The notes below the pieces were generated by a model, which saw nothing but the letters and a program-made list of their open reading frames with translations, did not search any database and was not told where the DNA came from. Of a stretch of DNA of 37,864 nt, positions 19,690 through 24,398 are shown one piece after another. How positions within the stretch are numbered: the first letter of the stretch is position 1; each line of letters starts with the position of its first letter. The stretch comes from a virus. The DNA lies in IMG/VR virus record IMGVR_UViG_3300009702_000052, positions 1 to 37,864 of that record. One strand, written 5' to 3'. Both the position numbers and the translations under genes were made by a program.

Positions 19690-20454
19690 TTATTTTTTTC
19701 CTTTCTCTAAATTTTCCTGAAATTCTTTTAATAAATCTTCCCGAATGCTTATATCAATATTTTTCAATTCTCCCATTTTAGAAACTTTCAAATCATTTTT
19801 TATTAGAATATCTTTAAAGATCTCCATGCCAAGTTGATTTTTATATTTAATAAGTTTATTGAAAAATTCTTCATTTGCATCTTTTGGTTTGTTCTTACGC
19901 TCCGGTGGCTTAATTGGTGCATTATATTTTTCTAGCATTGCATCATCGTCTTCTTCTGCAATATTAAAAATCATTCCAAGCAAATATCTTCTTGCATATT
20001 TTAATGTAGACCCTTTACTGTGTATTGCTGTCATCATTGATGCTCCTTTTATACCAACGCCATCTAAAGGTACATCTATAAAATGCGATGTGTCTATATG
20101 TCCATTTTCATGAGCGATTTTTGCTCTTATACGTATAGTCTTTTCTTCATTAGTTTTTTCCTCACTGAAAGAGATAAAAAAACCATGGTTAGTATATGCA
20201 GGCTTTAGTGTTTCAACTACATCTTTTAGATCAGCATATAAGCTTCTTGTTTGTGAATTATATTTTTGTTTTAGCACTGTTTCAACTTCTGCCTGTGCAA
20301 GAGCAAAATTTTTGTTGTAAGCCTTTTTGGCCTCTCCCGCTTCCCATCGCTCTTGAAGCTCTAACAACTTCTCAAGTTTTTCCAGATCTGTACCTGATTT
20401 TACTGCTAGCTCGATCATTGCTGCTGGGGTAGTTGCAACTTCATTGTTTTGCAT
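19690..20454 (-). CDS. erf: ERF-family single-strand annealing protein
   Basis: 254 aa. ERF signatures: LLELQERWEAGEAKKAYNK, FALAQAEVETVLKQKYNSQT, SLYADLKDVVETLKPAYTNH, GFFISFSEE and GASMMTAIHSKGSTLKYARRYLL followed by IFNIAEEDDDA. ERF proteins form rings that anneal complementary strands for phage recombination and genome circularisation. P22 Erf is 204 aa. It lies at the head of the group DUF669-like, HNH, PD-(D/E)XK nuclease. The ribosome binding site is AGAAAGGAAA. Confidence 0.9.
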   Translation of the reverse strand: MQNNEVATTPAAMIELAVKSGTDLEKLEKLLELQERWEAGEAKKAYNKNFALAQAEVETVLKQKYNSQTRSLYADLKDVVETLKPAYTNHGFFISFSEEKTNEEKTIRIRAKIAHENGHIDTSHFIDVPLDGVGIKGASMMTAIHSKGSTLKYARRYLLGMIFNIAEEDDDAMLEKYNAPIKPPERKNKPKDANEEFFNKLIKYKNQLGMEIFKDILIKNDLKVSKMGELKNIDISIREDLLKEFQENLEKGKK

Positions 20455-20566
20455 TTAATTTTTCCTTTCTTATCAATTTTGTAATCATAATTATATATTT
20501 TCCATCTATTACTTTGTTATATTTCAAACACTTGGATTTAAATTTTAGAAATATTCTATTTCTCAT
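20441..20566 (-). CDS. Possible 41-aa basic peptide
   Basis: A frame beginning MRNRIFLKFKSKCLKYNKVI starts 11 bases before the end of the 84-aa gene and ends 14 bases inside the ERF gene. It would fill the 100-base gap but has no clear ribosome binding site. It is basic and could be spurious. Confidence 0.25.
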   Translation of the reverse strand: MRNRIFLKFKSKCLKYNKVIDGKYIIMITKLIRKEKLNAKQ

Positions 20567-20810
20567 TGTCTGTTTTGTCATAAACAGATATACCATCACC
20601 CGCTGCTTGCAAAATTTTACCAACTCTCATTCTTGCATCTTCTAAATGTCTATATGAAAGCATAATATTAGCTTTCATTTCTTCATGTTGCCCATTGTAA
20701 GCTTGTTCGTTTTTAAATTCTCCATGATTCATCAATGATTTTACTGTCTTACAACCACCTTTAATATCATGCCTAAGTCTATCACATATTGCATTCAATT
20801 CTTCTTCCAT
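20556..20810 (-). CDS. Small helical hypothetical protein
   Basis: 84 aa: MEEELNAICDRLRHDIKGGC, HEEMKANIMLSYRHLEDARMRVGKILQAA. The EMKANIMLSYRHLEDARMRVGKxLQA segment recurs in small phage proteins next to recombination genes. AAGGAGAACATT precedes the ATG. It lies just after the attC-like element at 20840-20946. Confidence 0.65.
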   Translation of the reverse strand: MEEELNAICDRLRHDIKGGCKTVKSLMNHGEFKNEQAYNGQHEEMKANIMLSYRHLEDARMRVGKILQAAGDGISVYDKTDNEK

Positions 20811-20839
20811 AATGTTCTCCTTATCCCCAAGTGTTTGAA

Positions 20840-20946
20840 ATATAACAAACCGCTCCAGCTTACCGGCAATGCTCGTGCGATCTAGGTTTTAATTGTTTTC
20901 TAAGTTATTAGTCAACCTGCCGGAAGCTGATCTACGACAGTTATAC
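20840..20946 (+). other. attC-like element A
   Basis: On the plus strand: R''-like ATATAAC (20840-20846), arm CAGCTTACCGGCA (20856-20868), a 49-base centre, arm TGCCGGAAGCTG (20918-20929), R'-like GTTATAC (20940-20946). The arms pair perfectly except for one extra A at 20862. Paired outer cores, a spacer, paired inner arms and a single unpaired base are the marks of integron attC sites. The stop codon of the 69-aa gene lies inside GTTATAC. Confidence 0.65.
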
Positions 20947-21150
20947 CGCTTCCACTAATATAGAATCATTTTCATATCCGTAAGATTTTAATATTCTTAT
21001 TAAATCCCTGATTTCAAATTGTGGAATATCAGTCTCTATTTCAGACCAATAAAAGTCATCATATACAGACACCTTAAAGTGCGGTTTAACCACGCAGTCA
21101 AGATGACTGCGAATATCCTCCTGATTCTCCGGTTTAGTTGTTTGTTTCAT
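20941..21150 (-). CDS. Cassette gene: 69-aa hypothetical protein
   Basis: 69 aa: MKQTTKPENQEDIRSHLDCV, VYDDFYWSEIETDIPQFEIR, ending SYGYENDSILVEAV. It is acidic, with a C-terminal helix-strand pattern (IRDLIRILKSYGYENDSIL). Its TAA falls inside the GTTATAC core of element A. The ribosome binding site is weak (GCGGAGAAG). No family recognised. Confidence 0.6.
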   Translation of the reverse strand: MKQTTKPENQEDIRSHLDCVVKPHFKVSVYDDFYWSEIETDIPQFEIRDLIRILKSYGYENDSILVEAV

Positions 21151-21183
21151 TTTTAACTTCTCCGCAGCATCTTACTTAAGTCT

Positions 21184-21190
21184 GTTATAC
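21184..21190 (+). other. Isolated attC R'-like half site
   Basis: GTTATAC preceded by TTACTTAAGTCT matches the R' side of the attC-like elements, but no left half with paired arms is visible before the next gene start at 21150. It may be what remains of a degraded element between two fused cassettes. Confidence 0.35.
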
Positions 21191-21191
21191 G

Positions 21192-21548
21192 CTACACCCA
21201 TTCTTCATCGTTTTCAAGTGGGCAATCTATATGCACTTTATCATCATCGGTTTGTTCAATAATAATATTGGTTACCAGTTCACACGAATATCTTATATCT
21301 TTAAAAAAGTTAGCGGTTGGTAATTGTTGACAATATGGGCAATCAGCACAACAAGTTACAACTATCTTCTTATTCGCATTTTTTACTCTCTGTAAAATCT
21401 TTAATATCAAATCTGTTTCCTTATAATATGTTTTACATTTTTTCTCATGTATAATTTTTTGTATTTCTAAAATAGCAGATAACAAACCACTGGACGCTGA
21501 CTCGAAATGCACATGCGGTCTAGCCTTTTTTTGTTTTATATCTTTCAT
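21192..21548 (-). CDS. Cassette gene: Cys-containing hypothetical protein
   Basis: 118 aa, beginning MKDIKQKKARPHVHFESASS. A central cluster VTCCADCPYCQQL (CC..C..C) may bind a metal. The end is acidic with VHIDCPLENDEEW. Its helical N-terminal half (LLSAILEIQKIIHEKK) and the Cys cluster do not match a family I know. It lies between two attC-like remnants in the array. Confidence 0.6.
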   Translation of the reverse strand: MKDIKQKKARPHVHFESASSGLLSAILEIQKIIHEKKCKTYYKETDLILKILQRVKNANKKIVVTCCADCPYCQQLPTANFFKDIRYSCELVTNIIIEQTDDDKVHIDCPLENDEEWV

Positions 21549-21575
21549 TTTTCTTCTCTCGCAGGTCAGTTTTGA

Positions 21576-21641
21576 CTGATAAGTGTATTGATTGTCATTG
21601 AGATTGCTAGCAGCCAGATTGCCAATCTAGTCCGGCTTAGT
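21576..21641 (+). repeat. 66-bp direct repeat, copy 1
   Basis: Identical over 66 bases to 23227-23292. It runs from CTGATAAGTGTATTG to GTCCGGCTTAGT and contains short inverted repeats (GATTG/CAATC, AGATTGCCAATCT). It lies between element C and the 118-aa gene. Its first bases resemble a damaged attC R' end (CTGATAAG). Confidence 0.85.
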
Positions 21642-21663
21642 CTCCTATCCTCTCGGAAATACA

Positions 21664-21730
21664 CCTATCAAACTCATACAGTGGAGCAACAGAGTCTATG
21701 CGATTTGCTCGATAAACCCGATTTGAAACA
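21664..21730 (+). other. attC-like element C, degenerate
   Basis: CTATCAAACTCATACAG at the left matches the R''-plus-spacer of element F-a (TTATAACAAACTCATACAG) with a 3-base loss. Arms GAGCAA (21684-21689) and TTGCTC (21705-21710) pair. The right side is CGATTTGAAAC, a poor R' match. It is probably a decayed site. The remaining bases to 21776 are AT-rich and I see nothing in them. Confidence 0.4.
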
Positions 21731-21776
21731 CTTTTGTACTTTTATATTTTCTTTATTTATATTATTCATTTGATTA

Positions 21777-22262
21777 TTATAAATTATTCCTTCTTGCATA
21801 TTCCGCTATCAACAAAGCATCTGCATCATGTTTACATATAAATTCTGTCTGATTAGGAAATAATCTACATCCTATATCCCTGCTTGCTTTTTTCAATTCC
21901 TTTGCTTTCAGCCCTTTTGGCAATAATTCTTTTTGCCATTGCTTTGCACATATATACATATGTGGTATTTTATGTGATTCTAAGCATATCAATGTTGCTT
22001 CAAGTGCCCGTACTGCCGACAGACTGGCCTTAAACTTATTAGGATTAATCATAGGCTGTTCAATTATTGCGATTGAGTCAGAACTATAAAGATCAATCAT
22101 TATTGATAATAATTTATAGTCTATTCTGGTTATGTTTTGTTTGGCCTTTGTAAACGACTGTTCTTTTTTTACAGGAGTTTTATGTAAGAAATCATAGCCT
22201 TTACTTATTACTCCAATTGTCCCAGTGACACCATTATCTATCCCTATATATGTCTTCTCCAA
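21777..22262 (-). CDS. RuvC-like Holliday junction resolvase
   Basis: 161 aa from a TTG start behind AAAGGG. The RNase H-fold catalytic residues of RuvC are in place: Asp9 in IGIDNG, Glu68 in IIEQP, and Asp146/Asp148 in KHDADALLIAEYA. It is about the length of RuvC (173 aa). It would resolve branched DNA before packaging or during recombination. It shares a unit with a 29-aa ORF between elements D and C, so in the cassette view this is a two-gene cassette. Confidence 0.85.
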   Translation of the reverse strand: MEKTYIGIDNGVTGTIGVISKGYDFLHKTPVKKEQSFTKAKQNITRIDYKLLSIMIDLYSSDSIAIIEQPMINPNKFKASLSAVRALEATLICLESHKIPHMYICAKQWQKELLPKGLKAKELKKASRDIGCRLFPNQTEFICKHDADALLIAEYARRNNL

Positions 22263-22263
22263 T

Positions 22264-22353
22264 TCAATCCCTTTCGTTGTATTTGATTCTGCGATAGAGT
22301 TTATAAACGTTGAGTAAGATTATTAAAAAGATAAGTCTTATAAAATTTCTCAT
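22264..22353 (-). CDS. 29-aa membrane micropeptide
   Basis: The ATG at 22353 has a near-perfect AGGAGGG 6 bases upstream. The peptide begins MRNFIRLIFLIILLNVYKLY and ends basic (RRIKYNERD). A hydrophobic core with flanking basic residues suggests one membrane span. It ends 1 base before the RuvC-like start. The strong ribosome binding site makes it credible despite its size. Confidence 0.6.
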   Translation of the reverse strand: MRNFIRLIFLIILLNVYKLYRRIKYNERD

Positions 22354-22367
22354 TTAAAACCCTCCTA

Positions 22368-22513
22368 TTATAAGTAATCTGCCTACATAGATGTTTGCGG
22401 GAAACCTAAACACCCATTACGAGAGCGAAAGGAGATTATTCTGATGCCTGGTAAATCATAATCTTAAAGTCTCTCTATAGGCAGATTTATTTTCCACTTA
22501 TTACTTGTTATAA
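22368..22513 (+). other. attC-like element D
   Basis: Plus strand: TTATAAG (22368-22374), arm AATCTGCCTACATAG (22376-22390), an 84-base centre, arm CTATAGGCAGATT (22475-22487), GTTATAA (22507-22513). The arms pair over 13 bases with two extra bases (CA) in the left arm. The stop of the 91-aa gene lies in GTTATAA. The left core departs from RYYYAAC. Confidence 0.55.
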
Positions 22514-22783
22514 TTCTATTGTTCCTGCATTCTCAACTACACTTTTTAGTTCATTTGCCGTTTTACAAAAGTTTTCTAATTTATCAAAAATCAAGCCAAA
22601 ATTATAATCATCTTTTAGTGCTTTAACCTTAGTAATTGTATTTGCATAATCTATAGCAGGTAATTTCTGTCCAATGTCTAAGTTGTCTGGCAAATTACCA
22701 TTTACCGCCTTTAAAATCTCTTGTACTTCCTTAGTCTTTGCAGTTATCAAATACCCATCTTCAGTTTTTGCAATTATTTCCAT
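22508..22783 (-). CDS. Cassette gene: 91-aa hypothetical protein
   Basis: 91 aa: MEIIAKTEDGYLITAKTKEV, QEILKAVNGNLPDNLDIGQK, then a helical end (FGLIFDKLENFCKTANELKS). The N-terminal half reads as a small strand-helix domain, EIIAKTEDGYLITAxxxEV, of a kind seen in small phage proteins near recombination genes. AGAAAGGGG precedes the start. The stop overlaps the R' box of element D. Function unknown. Confidence 0.6.
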   Translation of the reverse strand: MEIIAKTEDGYLITAKTKEVQEILKAVNGNLPDNLDIGQKLPAIDYANTITKVKALKDDYNFGLIFDKLENFCKTANELKSVVENAGTIEL

Positions 22784-22810
22784 TTTATACCCCTTTCTGA
22801 TTGTTTTGAA

Positions 22811-22870
22811 TTATAACAACGAATAAAACCGACCAGAAAAACACTGGCGGCTTATCTATGACTGTTATAA
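22811..22870 (+). other. attC-like element E (most canonical)
   Basis: 60 bp. Plus strand: R'' TTATAAC (22811-22817), arm CCGACCAG (22829-22836), a 7-base centre, arm CTGGCGG (22844-22850), R' GTTATAA (22864-22870). The outer cores are exact reverse complements. The inner arms pair with one extra A at 22832. From memory, classical aadA-type attC sites have the same plan (TAACAA, CCGACGCC, GGCGCGGCTTA, GTTAGAT) with the extra A in the same arm. Confidence 0.7.
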
Positions 22871-22872
22871 TA

Positions 22873-23070
22873 TTAATAATCTTTGTTATACATAATTGTT
22901 TCTTGAGCTTTTTCTGCGATTATTTCAATTGTCCACAATTCTTCCTCTGTTCCTCTTCTTGGATATGCTATTTGCCGCATTGTTCTTTGTAATTTTACCA
23001 ATTTATCATATTTCTCTTTGGGTGTTTCTCCGTCAAGTTGACCCCATATAAGATTATCGAACGATTGCAT
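22873..23070 (-). CDS. Cassette gene: 65-aa hypothetical protein
   Basis: 65 aa: MQSFDNLIWGQLDGETPKEK, LVKLQRTMRQIAYPRRGTEE, ending IIAEKAQETIMYNKDY. Mostly helical and charged. GAAAGGAGATATTAG precedes the ATG. The stop lies 3 bases from the R' box of element E. No family recognised. Confidence 0.6.
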   Translation of the reverse strand: MQSFDNLIWGQLDGETPKEKYDKLVKLQRTMRQIAYPRRGTEEELWTIEIIAEKAQETIMYNKDY

Positions 23071-23101
23071 TTTCTAATATCTCCTTTCTTTGTATAAAAT
23101 A

Positions 23102-23233
23102 TTATAACAAACTCATACAGCCGACCAATAATACAGGTGCGGTTTATAACTAATCATTTTAGCTATCACACTTATCTACCGCCTTACCGTGTGCGATGAC
23201 CTATATACTGGCGGCTGATTCCAGACCTGATAA
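23102..23233 (+). other. attC-like element F-a
   Basis: Plus strand: TTATAAC (23102-23108), arm CAGCCGACCA (23118-23127), a long structured centre, arm TGGCGGCTG (23209-23217), right end GATTCCAGACCTGATAA. The arms pair with one extra A at 23124. The R' box lacks its TT (TG--ATAA), so recombination there may be lost. The centre holds its own hairpins, such as CACTTATC/GATAAGTG. Confidence 0.55.
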
Positions 23234-23292
23234 GTGTATTGATTGTCATTGAGATTGCTAGCAGCCAGATTGCCAATCTAGTCCGGCTTAGT
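23227..23292 (+). repeat. 66-bp direct repeat, copy 2
   Basis: Second copy of 21576-21641, identical over 66 bases. It bridges the damaged right end of element F-a and the left end of element F-b. Confidence 0.85.
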
Positions 23293-23400
23293 GGAGCGGC
23301 AAATGGCAACCCGATAAGGCTGATGACATCCTTGTAAGTATTGTATCTCGTTAGAGCAAGGAAAACATTTAGCCGCCCACTGATTCCCGATCTGTTAGAT
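23276..23400 (+). other. attC-like element F-b
   Basis: Plus strand: ATCTAGT (23276-23282), arm GTGGAGCGGCAAATG (23291-23305), centre, arm CATTTAGCCGCCCAC (23366-23380), spacer TGATTCCCGATCT, R' GTTAGAT (23394-23400), an exact GTTRRRY. The arms pair with an extra A in the left arm and one unpaired A in the right arm. Its left core lies inside the 66-bp repeat. Confidence 0.55.
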
Positions 23401-23405
23401 ATTTT

Positions 23406-23624
23406 TTATTTACTTATTAGCCGTCTATAAATCCTATGTGCTGGATAGCTTGAATCAGGAGCTTTCTTTCCTATACAAGTTGCAGGTTTCCATACAGGAT
23501 TATCTTTCATACCATCTCTACACATATCTACCCAGTCACCTTTTCTTATAATCTCGTTATGCTTAAGATTGCGCCATTTTACATTACTCCAATCAGGAAT
23601 ATTTTTTATTTTATTTTTATTCAT
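23406..23624 (-). CDS. Cassette gene: 72-aa hypothetical protein
   Basis: 72 aa, beginning MNKNKIKNIPDWSNVKWRNL. The middle, IIRKGDWVDMCRDGMKDNPVWKPATCIGKKAPD, resembles short phage proteins with an xRKGDxxD pattern. The end is basic (HRIYRRLISK). TAGGGG precedes the start. The stop lies 2 bases from element F-b. Function unknown. Confidence 0.6.
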   Translation of the reverse strand: MNKNKIKNIPDWSNVKWRNLKHNEIIRKGDWVDMCRDGMKDNPVWKPATCIGKKAPDSSYPAHRIYRRLISK

Positions 23625-23659
23625 TATTTTTACCCCTATTATGTGTTCCTACTTCAGAC

Positions 23660-23666
23660 GTTATAA
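23660..23666 (+). other. Isolated attC R'-like half site
   Basis: GTTATAA preceded by CTACTTCAGAC, like the right flank of element F-a (GATTCCAGAC). The stop of the 69-aa gene lies inside it. Only 35 bases separate the two genes here and no paired arms fit, so this looks like an element reduced to one half. Confidence 0.4.
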
Positions 23667-23870
23667 TTTTAATTCTGGATTATCTGGACATCCATGATAA
23701 TTCCGATTACTACAAGAATAATAAGTATCACTTCTTATCATACTTCCTTCTGTTCCGTTATAATTTCTATGCTGATATTTATGAGGAACAAAGCATTTAA
23801 AATTTTTGCAATTTGTTCTACTAACATTAACTTTAATAAAACCATTATTTTGTTTTATCTTTATAATCAT
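23661..23870 (-). CDS. Cassette gene: 69-aa basic protein
   Basis: 69 aa: MIIKIKQNNGFIKVNVSRTN, then CKNFKCFVPHKYQHRNYNG and SCSNRNYHGCPDNPELKL. Four Cys and several His are spread over the second half and could form a metal site. No good ribosome binding site is seen. The TAA sits in a GTTATAA core. No family recognised. Confidence 0.55.
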   Translation of the reverse strand: MIIKIKQNNGFIKVNVSRTNCKNFKCFVPHKYQHRNYNGTEGSMIRSDTYYSCSNRNYHGCPDNPELKL

Positions 23871-23883
23871 AATAAATTCAAAA

Positions 23884-24018
23884 ATCTAACAAGCTCATAA
23901 AGTTAGGCGCAAATGCACCTGTCAAGTTTTCATCCCAGGCGGCCTATCAGTTAGTCGAACACTGACATCTCGTCCCAGAGCACTCCATTTGCGCCCAATG
24001 ATTCCTGATTTGTTATAA
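23884..24018 (+). other. attC-like element G
   Basis: Plus strand: R'' ATCTAAC (23884-23890, exact RYYYAAC), spacer AAGCTCATAAAG, arm TTAGGCGCAAATG (23903-23915), a 70-base structured centre, arm CATTTGCGCCCAA (23986-23998), spacer TGATTCCTGATTT, R' GTTATAA (24012-24018). The arms pair over 10 bp plus two beyond one mismatch. The stop of the 61-aa gene overlaps R'. Confidence 0.65.
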
Positions 24019-24198
24019 TTTTAAATCAAAACAAATATCTCTTATACTATCAGAGATACTAACACCTTGAGCATACCACTTCCCGCCAATTGAAGTTATC
24101 TTGTCAATTATTAATTTATCATAATCAGAATTAATTCCTTGATTTTCAGTTTTATCAAAATTTGGCAACTTGTAAGTTACTTTAATCCTTGCTTCCAT
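24013..24198 (-). CDS. Cassette gene: 61-aa hypothetical protein
   Basis: 61 aa: MEARIKVTYKLPNFDKTENQ, SDYDKLIIDKITSIGGKWYAQGVSISDSIRDICFDL. The pattern KxxxKITSIGGKWYxQGxxxxxxxRDIxFxL looks like a small folded alpha/beta protein. AAAGGAGTG precedes the start. The stop TAA lies in the GTTATAA box of element G. It is the first gene of the array in transcription order. Confidence 0.65.
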   Translation of the reverse strand: MEARIKVTYKLPNFDKTENQGINSDYDKLIIDKITSIGGKWYAQGVSISDSIRDICFDLKL

Positions 24199-24225: not shown

Positions 24226-24244
24226 TTATAACAAACTTATATCC
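24226..24244 (+). other. attC R''-like half site at the array edge
   Basis: TTATAACAAACTTATATCC matches the left end of the attC-like elements (compare TTATAACAAACTCATACAG), but the bases beyond it code for the end of the ribbon-helix-helix protein and no second half is seen. It may mark the array boundary, in the place an attI-like or terminal half site would occupy. Confidence 0.35.
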
Positions 24245-24245
24245 A

Positions 24246-24398
24246 TTATTTCTTCTTAATAAAATAGGAAACAATTAAACTTTCGATAAAACTTGATAAA
24301 CTTTTAGTCAGTTTATCAGCTTCAATTTTAGCCTTCCGGTGAACATTATAAGACAAATTAATATTATATCTTTTTTTCTGTGTTTTTGTTTTCTTCAT
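24246..24398 (-). CDS. Ribbon-helix-helix DNA-binding protein
   Basis: 50 aa. After a Lys-rich start (MKKTKTQKK), RYNINLSYNVHRKAKIEADK and LTKSLSSFIESLIVSYFIKK give the strand-helix-helix pattern of Arc/CopG-type regulators. Its promoter (24406-24434) puts transcription start at the ATG, with no ribosome binding site. It precedes the cassette array and is the only plausible transcription regulator on this strand. It may control its own promoter, where TGTGTATTTGTGTATA contains a direct repeat. Confidence 0.65.
   Translation of the reverse strand: MKKTKTQKKRYNINLSYNVHRKAKIEADKLTKSLSSFIESLIVSYFIKKK

Follow-up and report, generated by a model that had tools for sequence, protein, structure and literature searches.

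The question raised by the 20.5-24.3 kb region of the virus record IMGVR_UViG_3300009702_000052 was whether the repeated elements separating its small genes are integron attC sites and, if so, whether these genes are exchanged as cassettes. The window was the complete IMG/VR record (37,864 bases, 35% G+C), and it displayed the tailed-phage markers P22-like portal, DnaB-type primase-helicase, and ERF annealing protein; the region in question was composed of small minus-strand genes, with the ERF gene on one side and the gene of an Arc-like regulator on the other. An initial annotation had listed six attC-type elements here (A, C, D, E, F, and G) and had taken the genes between them for mobile cassettes collected by an integrase from elsewhere. 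The array is a cluster of attC sites lacking an integrase (CALIN) in a phage, and the region is probably a reversed-polarity array of phage cassettes, placed in an early operon, on which an integron integrase would act in trans.

The attC sites were identified by (i) a geometric scan for outer boxes, a spacer of 9 nt, a 6-bp stem, a single bulged base, and further pairs and (ii) two covariance models, a short one and one with a long unstructured centre (R2), trained on ten established attC examples taken from class 1 cassettes, a Shewanella phage integron, and TJE1, with no window sequence among them. The models and the gene caller were simple, and one long-centre alignment, A4, was dropped, as MAFFT had put the right halves in wrong places. 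In the long-centre model, A (38.0 bits), B (33.8 bits), E (22.8 bits), and F-a (16.6 bits) were the top four matches of the window, all on the plus strand, and the top match outside the array region had 11.6 bits; the E-values of 9e-8 for A, 1e-6 for B, and 0.03 for F-a are somewhat flattering, because the R2 centre length was set after A and B were known to be 107 nt, and this counts against the cassette-array reading. Site E gained 27.3 bits (E-value 1e-4) in the short model. The attC likeness claimed in the initial annotation was thus borne out by models of known attC sites. Three same-strand matches within 3.8 kb summing to at least A+B+E occurred in 0 of 1000 dinucleotide shuffles; a single match equal to B arose in 3% of shuffles, and the significance therefore rests on the A+B+E cluster.

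Site A (20840..20946, plus strand; scanner score 35.2) had R'' ATATAAC, a bulged A after 6 bp, and R' GTTATAC; site B (21084..21190, plus strand; scanner score 34.9), overlooked in the initial annotation, was also complete and overlapped the 5' end of the open reading frame (ORF) 20941-21150; and site E (22811..22870, plus strand) was complete within 60 nt. A and B were near-perfect in the geometric scan, with the bulged A placed as in aadA1, aadA2, and phage TJE1. With respect to the outer boxes RYYYAAC/GTTRRRY, A and B fitted, E and G differed at the outermost base, and C and the R' of F-a failed. The inner arms of A, B, E, and F-a contained 6 bp, a bulged A, and then 3-6 bp (4-6 bp in A and E), with one mismatch in E; A and E had left spacers of 8-9 nt and right spacers of 10 nt, a geometry matching the attC sites of aadA1, aadA2, and TJE1. 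The right spacers fell into two families: A/E (ATCTAYGACW, with B looser) and C/F/G (GATTCCnGATyT type, with C loosest).

A regulatory or terminator role for these hairpins is very improbable, as is their origin as inverted repeats arising by chance in AT-rich DNA. Such readings would suit the one terminator-like match in site E (minus strand) and the strong folding of element D, which has no attC features, but terminator-like matches were at chance level (2 found vs 1.9 expected), and A, B, and E were attC-specific in their spacing, extra-helical base, and outer boxes and formed a cluster that the shuffles never reproduced.

In bacterial cassettes, the attC carries its extra base in the R''-side arm, and R'' comes after the gene. 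In the window, the bulged arm was the left one on the plus strand and every gene was on the minus strand, so the genes are inverted relative to attC, a polarity that the initial annotation had missed. All eight cassette genes were on the minus strand with attC on the plus strand, in place of the canonical sense arrangement, and this inversion argues against an array that was simply captured from a host integron. There was about one small gene per attC site, as expected of the proposed cassettes; the stops of seven of the eight genes were located 0-8 nt from an RYYYAAC box, and in four the TAA of the box was the stop itself. The cassette ORFs, all on the minus strand, included 20941..21150 (69 aa), whose TAA stop was supplied by the site A box GTATAAC; 21192..21548 (118 aa), stopping 2 nt off the R' of site B; 22508..22783 (91 aa), with its stop within a box TTATAAC; 22873..23070 (65 aa), whose stop adjoined the R' of site E; 23406..23624 (72 aa), stopping 6 nt off the R' of F-b; 23661..23870 (69 aa), with its stop within another TTATAAC; and 24013..24198 (61 aa), with its stop within the site G box TTATAAC. 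A Holliday-junction resolvase ORF of 161 aa (21777..22262, minus strand; phrog_1770, E-value 1.3e-14) was found between C and D, and an ORF of 84 aa (20556..20810, minus strand) lay to the left of site A in antisense orientation relative to attC.

No match to IntI, TIGR02249, PF00589, or another tyrosine recombinase was found on the 37.9-kb record, so an integrase would have to act in trans, as the initial annotation had supposed. A, B, and E lay within 2.03 kb, and no TIGR02249 match was present on the record; at least two close attC sites with intI absent nearby constitute a CALIN. A complete integron was not recovered: IntI and PF00589 gave no match, and attI and Pc were covered by no separate search.

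The orientation comparison was extended to (i) IMG/VR loci retrieved by one attC motif blind to genes, a sample depending on IMG/VR's own classification, and (ii) loci that this motif retrieved from 369 genomes of a single bacterial class. ORF length by itself had given a noisy first count of orientation, and coding potential and family matches were used instead. By coding potential between adjacent sites, 54 of the IMG/VR cassettes were antisense and 9 sense, with 69 unclear, and the bacterial cassettes comprised 0 antisense, 43 sense, and 13 unclear (54/9 vs 0/43, Fisher p 4e-21, a value that overstates independence because several bacterial loci share genomes). As an independent check, the longest antisense ORFs between viral attC sites, 70 in number, matched 59 PHROG families, and 70 sense ORFs matched 3; the attC strand given by Infernal agreed in the loci where it was run. 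One of 50 viral loci that encode a related primase-helicase had an array: L088, with approximately eleven attC sites on the plus strand and its genes, including two DNA methyltransferases and a phage gp49/66-family gene, on the minus strand. The published CALIN phage MW202573, a portal relative of the window phage, also had inverted genes. In phage records, the attC of L088 and aadA1 matched, chance matches aside, only the known integron of P1 and a Salmonella record resembling a plasmid.

A terminase of phrog_2 was present on 14 of 45 array records, and none of these 14 had a full-length integron integrase. Eight other array records did have a full integron integrase (L139, L172, L143, L155, L187, L212, L215, and L227; TIGR02249, 361-479 bits), adjacent to attC sites whose genes were antisense; it occupied 7296-8324 in L139, where it was 57% identical to IntI1, and 5806-6834 in L172. 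In these contigs, the arrangement of intI and attC was the usual one, and most of the genes that could be called pointed back toward intI. The eight records are listed in IMG/VR and their viral nature is putative; L139 and L172 were rejected as proven phages, as they had IntI and ParB-like genes and no TerL was found. Across dozens of further viral contigs, inverted genes were the norm; L178 (IMGVR_UViG_2838787323), which carried a terminase, a truncated integron integrase, and sense cassettes, was an exception to the inverted pattern. The antisense cargo of the viral arrays (L133-L252) contained many DNA methyltransferases together with RNA ligase, DHH phosphoesterase, queuine tRNA-ribosyltransferase, and a Mom-like protein, and an anti-restriction role of such cargo is possible.

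Gain or loss of whole gene-plus-site units at the core boxes, as envisaged for mobile cassettes, was observed in similar arrays. L139 and L172 were 99.93% identical across the 4,084 bp preceding the array, beyond which they displayed three whole-unit differences, at each of which the shorter array fused one attC body to another's tail exactly at G^TT; L203 and L221 provided a fourth whole-unit difference at the same box. L144 and L212 had one 361-bp unit in common (97.8% identical) with unrelated flanks, G^TTAGGC forming its start and GCG^TT its end, and an 86% relative of this unit was found in L244, a terminase-bearing contig. It would be surprising if the repeats were instead linkers, kept as short homologies for module swaps by the phage ERF protein and resolvase, with attC likeness reflecting ancestry: the array does adjoin the ERF gene and hold a resolvase gene, and the L088 array likewise lay beside SSB and YqaJ exonuclease genes, but the crossovers in comparable arrays fell at the single G^TT step and not anywhere in the conserved site, and L139 and L172 encoded a full integron integrase. 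For the window phage, cassette movement is inferred from site anatomy and from these other cases, since no close relative with different cassette content was found.

The remaining elements of the window array were less regular. Site G (23884..24018, plus strand) had a long centre, R'' ATCTAAC, R' GTTATAA, and a 13-bp stem, and its minimum-energy fold paired the R and L arms (z -3.1); covariance-model support was weak, and G is a probable attC. Site C (21664..21730, plus strand) was a degenerate attC remnant that kept the spacer AAACTCATACAG with mutated outer boxes, gave no covariance-model match, and folded at chance level. The low scores of C and G are no disproof, because known attC sites of other shapes (dfrA12 and Shewanella) also got low scores with these models. 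Element D (22368..22513, plus strand) was a long hairpin with the right box GTTATAA and no match in either attC model, and it is not a canonical attC because the left AAC box and spacer were absent. Of the elements put forward in the initial annotation, E (z -5.7), D (z -3.2), and G folded above chance and C did not, and its list of six attC-type elements stood for A and E as canonical sites, F as a compound, and G as probable, with C degenerate and D not attC.

F is a fused pair of half-sites, real but compound. F-a (23102..23226, plus strand) contained R'', the inner arms CAGCCG(A)CCA/TGGCGGCTG, and a degenerate R' GATAAGT, while F-b (23293..23400, plus strand) was an attC right part with the inner arms AGTGG(A)GCGGC/GCCGCCCACT and R' GTTAGAT but no R''. 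The right spacer of F-a led into GATAAGT, a mutated R' and the start of a 66-nt repeat, and F-b started with its inner arm right after copy 2 of this repeat. The other copy suggests that the stretch holding the left box of F-b was lost by a deletion between AGT repeats; this reading, like those of C and D, was made from the sequence. The two 66-nt copies were exact: copy 1 (21576..21641) began at an R'-like box GATAAGT and formed the body of a gene-less cassette-like unit, and copy 2 (23227..23292) began at the R' of F-a. Neither contained an ORF, and the pair may represent a duplicated gene-less cassette or gene conversion; different attC sites followed the two copies, which simple cassette duplication fails to explain.

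Further remnants were a left half-site TAACAAACTTATA (24226..24240, plus strand; repeat family D2) and a lone R' box GTTATAA (23660..23666, plus strand) in which the stop of ORF 23661-23870 partly lies. ORF 20556-20810 was flanked by a perfect 23-nt inverted repeat TTTGTTATATTTCAAACACTTGG (20513-20535 and 20827-20849); each arm of the repeat had an attC outer box, the right arm overlapping the R'' of site A, and this repeat may be the left boundary of the first cassette. At the array borders, the ERF single-strand annealing protein gene (19690..20454, minus strand; PF04404, E-value 7e-21) followed the array, and an Arc/HicB-like ORF of 50 aa (24246..24398, minus strand) was located at its upstream end in transcription order.

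Several observations weigh against an active cassette array in the window phage. With C, D, and F damaged, some of the array may be unable to move; a 70% identical homologue of the 24013-24198 product was found in a related virus (L003, 1437-1607) close upstream of terL with no attC nearby; the window genes were not found as cassettes elsewhere, nor was a close relative differing in cassette content; arrays were rare, the query phage alone having one among 80 terminase-chosen loci; and neither host nor integrase was found for the window phage. Relatives of its ERF protein were searched for and none was found, and its TerL had no relative in INPHARED and three distant contigs in IMG/VR. The exact left spacer and the 66-nt repeat gave zero matches in IMG/VR, and the right-spacer pattern gave seven there, all by chance; the left-spacer pattern gave 61 matches and 0 attC in 84,980 genomes, and hence no host clue; site E gave one chance match against plasmids; and Rfam gave no family match.

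These points bear on a decayed remnant, in which a piece of an array gained by illegitimate recombination would retain true but inert attC sites among genes that are now ordinary phage genes. The damaged or fused C, D, and F, the Holliday-junction resolvase gene and the gene with the attC-less homologue (both ordinary phage genes), and a record with no integrase match all agree with it. Three sites are intact, however; a captured bacterial array would hold sense genes, whereas the window genes are antisense; and comparable arrays in other viral contigs recombine at G^TT. A decayed remnant is therefore considered unlikely, although the most credible of the alternatives, and a reversed-polarity cassette array remains the preferred reading.

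According to this preferred reading, the attC bottom strand (here the minus strand), once single-stranded, would fold into a recombinogenic hairpin, and an integron integrase from the host or another element would exchange strands at G^TT of R', so that a circle of one reversed gene plus one attC could leave or enter. The genes would be read from the phage operon promoter and not from the integron Pc, so only antisense-gene cassettes would be expressed in such an array. On the simplest view, the viral prevalence of inverted cassettes reflects an operon promoter on the side away from intI/attI, by which antisense genes are read. Cassettes from bacterial arrays would be read backwards here, as would phage cassettes at a bacterial attI, and the phage and bacterial pools should consequently be partly separated. 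With moderate confidence, phages would keep their own class of integron cassettes, with genes inverted relative to attC, a pool set apart by reading direction, G^TT exchange between viruses, and enrichment in DNA-modification genes. If this holds, phages would actively trade small genes, among them those for DNA methyltransferases, Mom-like modification, and queuine-type enzymes, which may counter restriction. Bottom-strand selection at attC is held to serve cassette entry in a Pc-readable orientation (PMC11023631); viral cassettes of opposite polarity would use the same chemistry with a different expression plan, which predicts a barrier between the phage and bacterial pools, and they make the origin of gene-attC linkage directly testable.

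The window array was finally compared with known systems. The initial annotation knew of no such array in a tailed-phage recombination module, but CALINs in phages were reported in 2023 from 10,705 genomes (TJE1, P12002L, PH101, MW202573, and others; Qi et al. 2023, PMC9892861), so the presence of an array alone is not new; these are, like the window, attC clusters without integrase in tailed-phage genomes, and IntI1 recombined five of six tested virulent-phage attC sites. The accessible part of that report mentions divergent attC directions in one phage only and no systematic gene inversion; no report of such inversion was found in the open-access literature, and systematic polarity inversion looks like the new aspect. 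In TJE1, unlike the window, genes and attC shared one strand. Class 1 and chromosomal integron arrays shared with the window the attC anatomy and one gene per site, and they exchange at G^TT, but their genes are sense and read from Pc, while those of the window were antisense, with no intI, attI, or Pc found (attI and Pc without a separate search). Treponema reverse integrons (PMC3607928) resembled the window in an unusual relation of reading directions within an integron; they are defined by intI directed toward attI and in the same direction as the cassette genes, and the window record had no intI. Unlike these reverse integrons, the intI-bearing IMG/VR contigs kept the canonical intI-attC geometry, with the genes mostly pointing back to intI.

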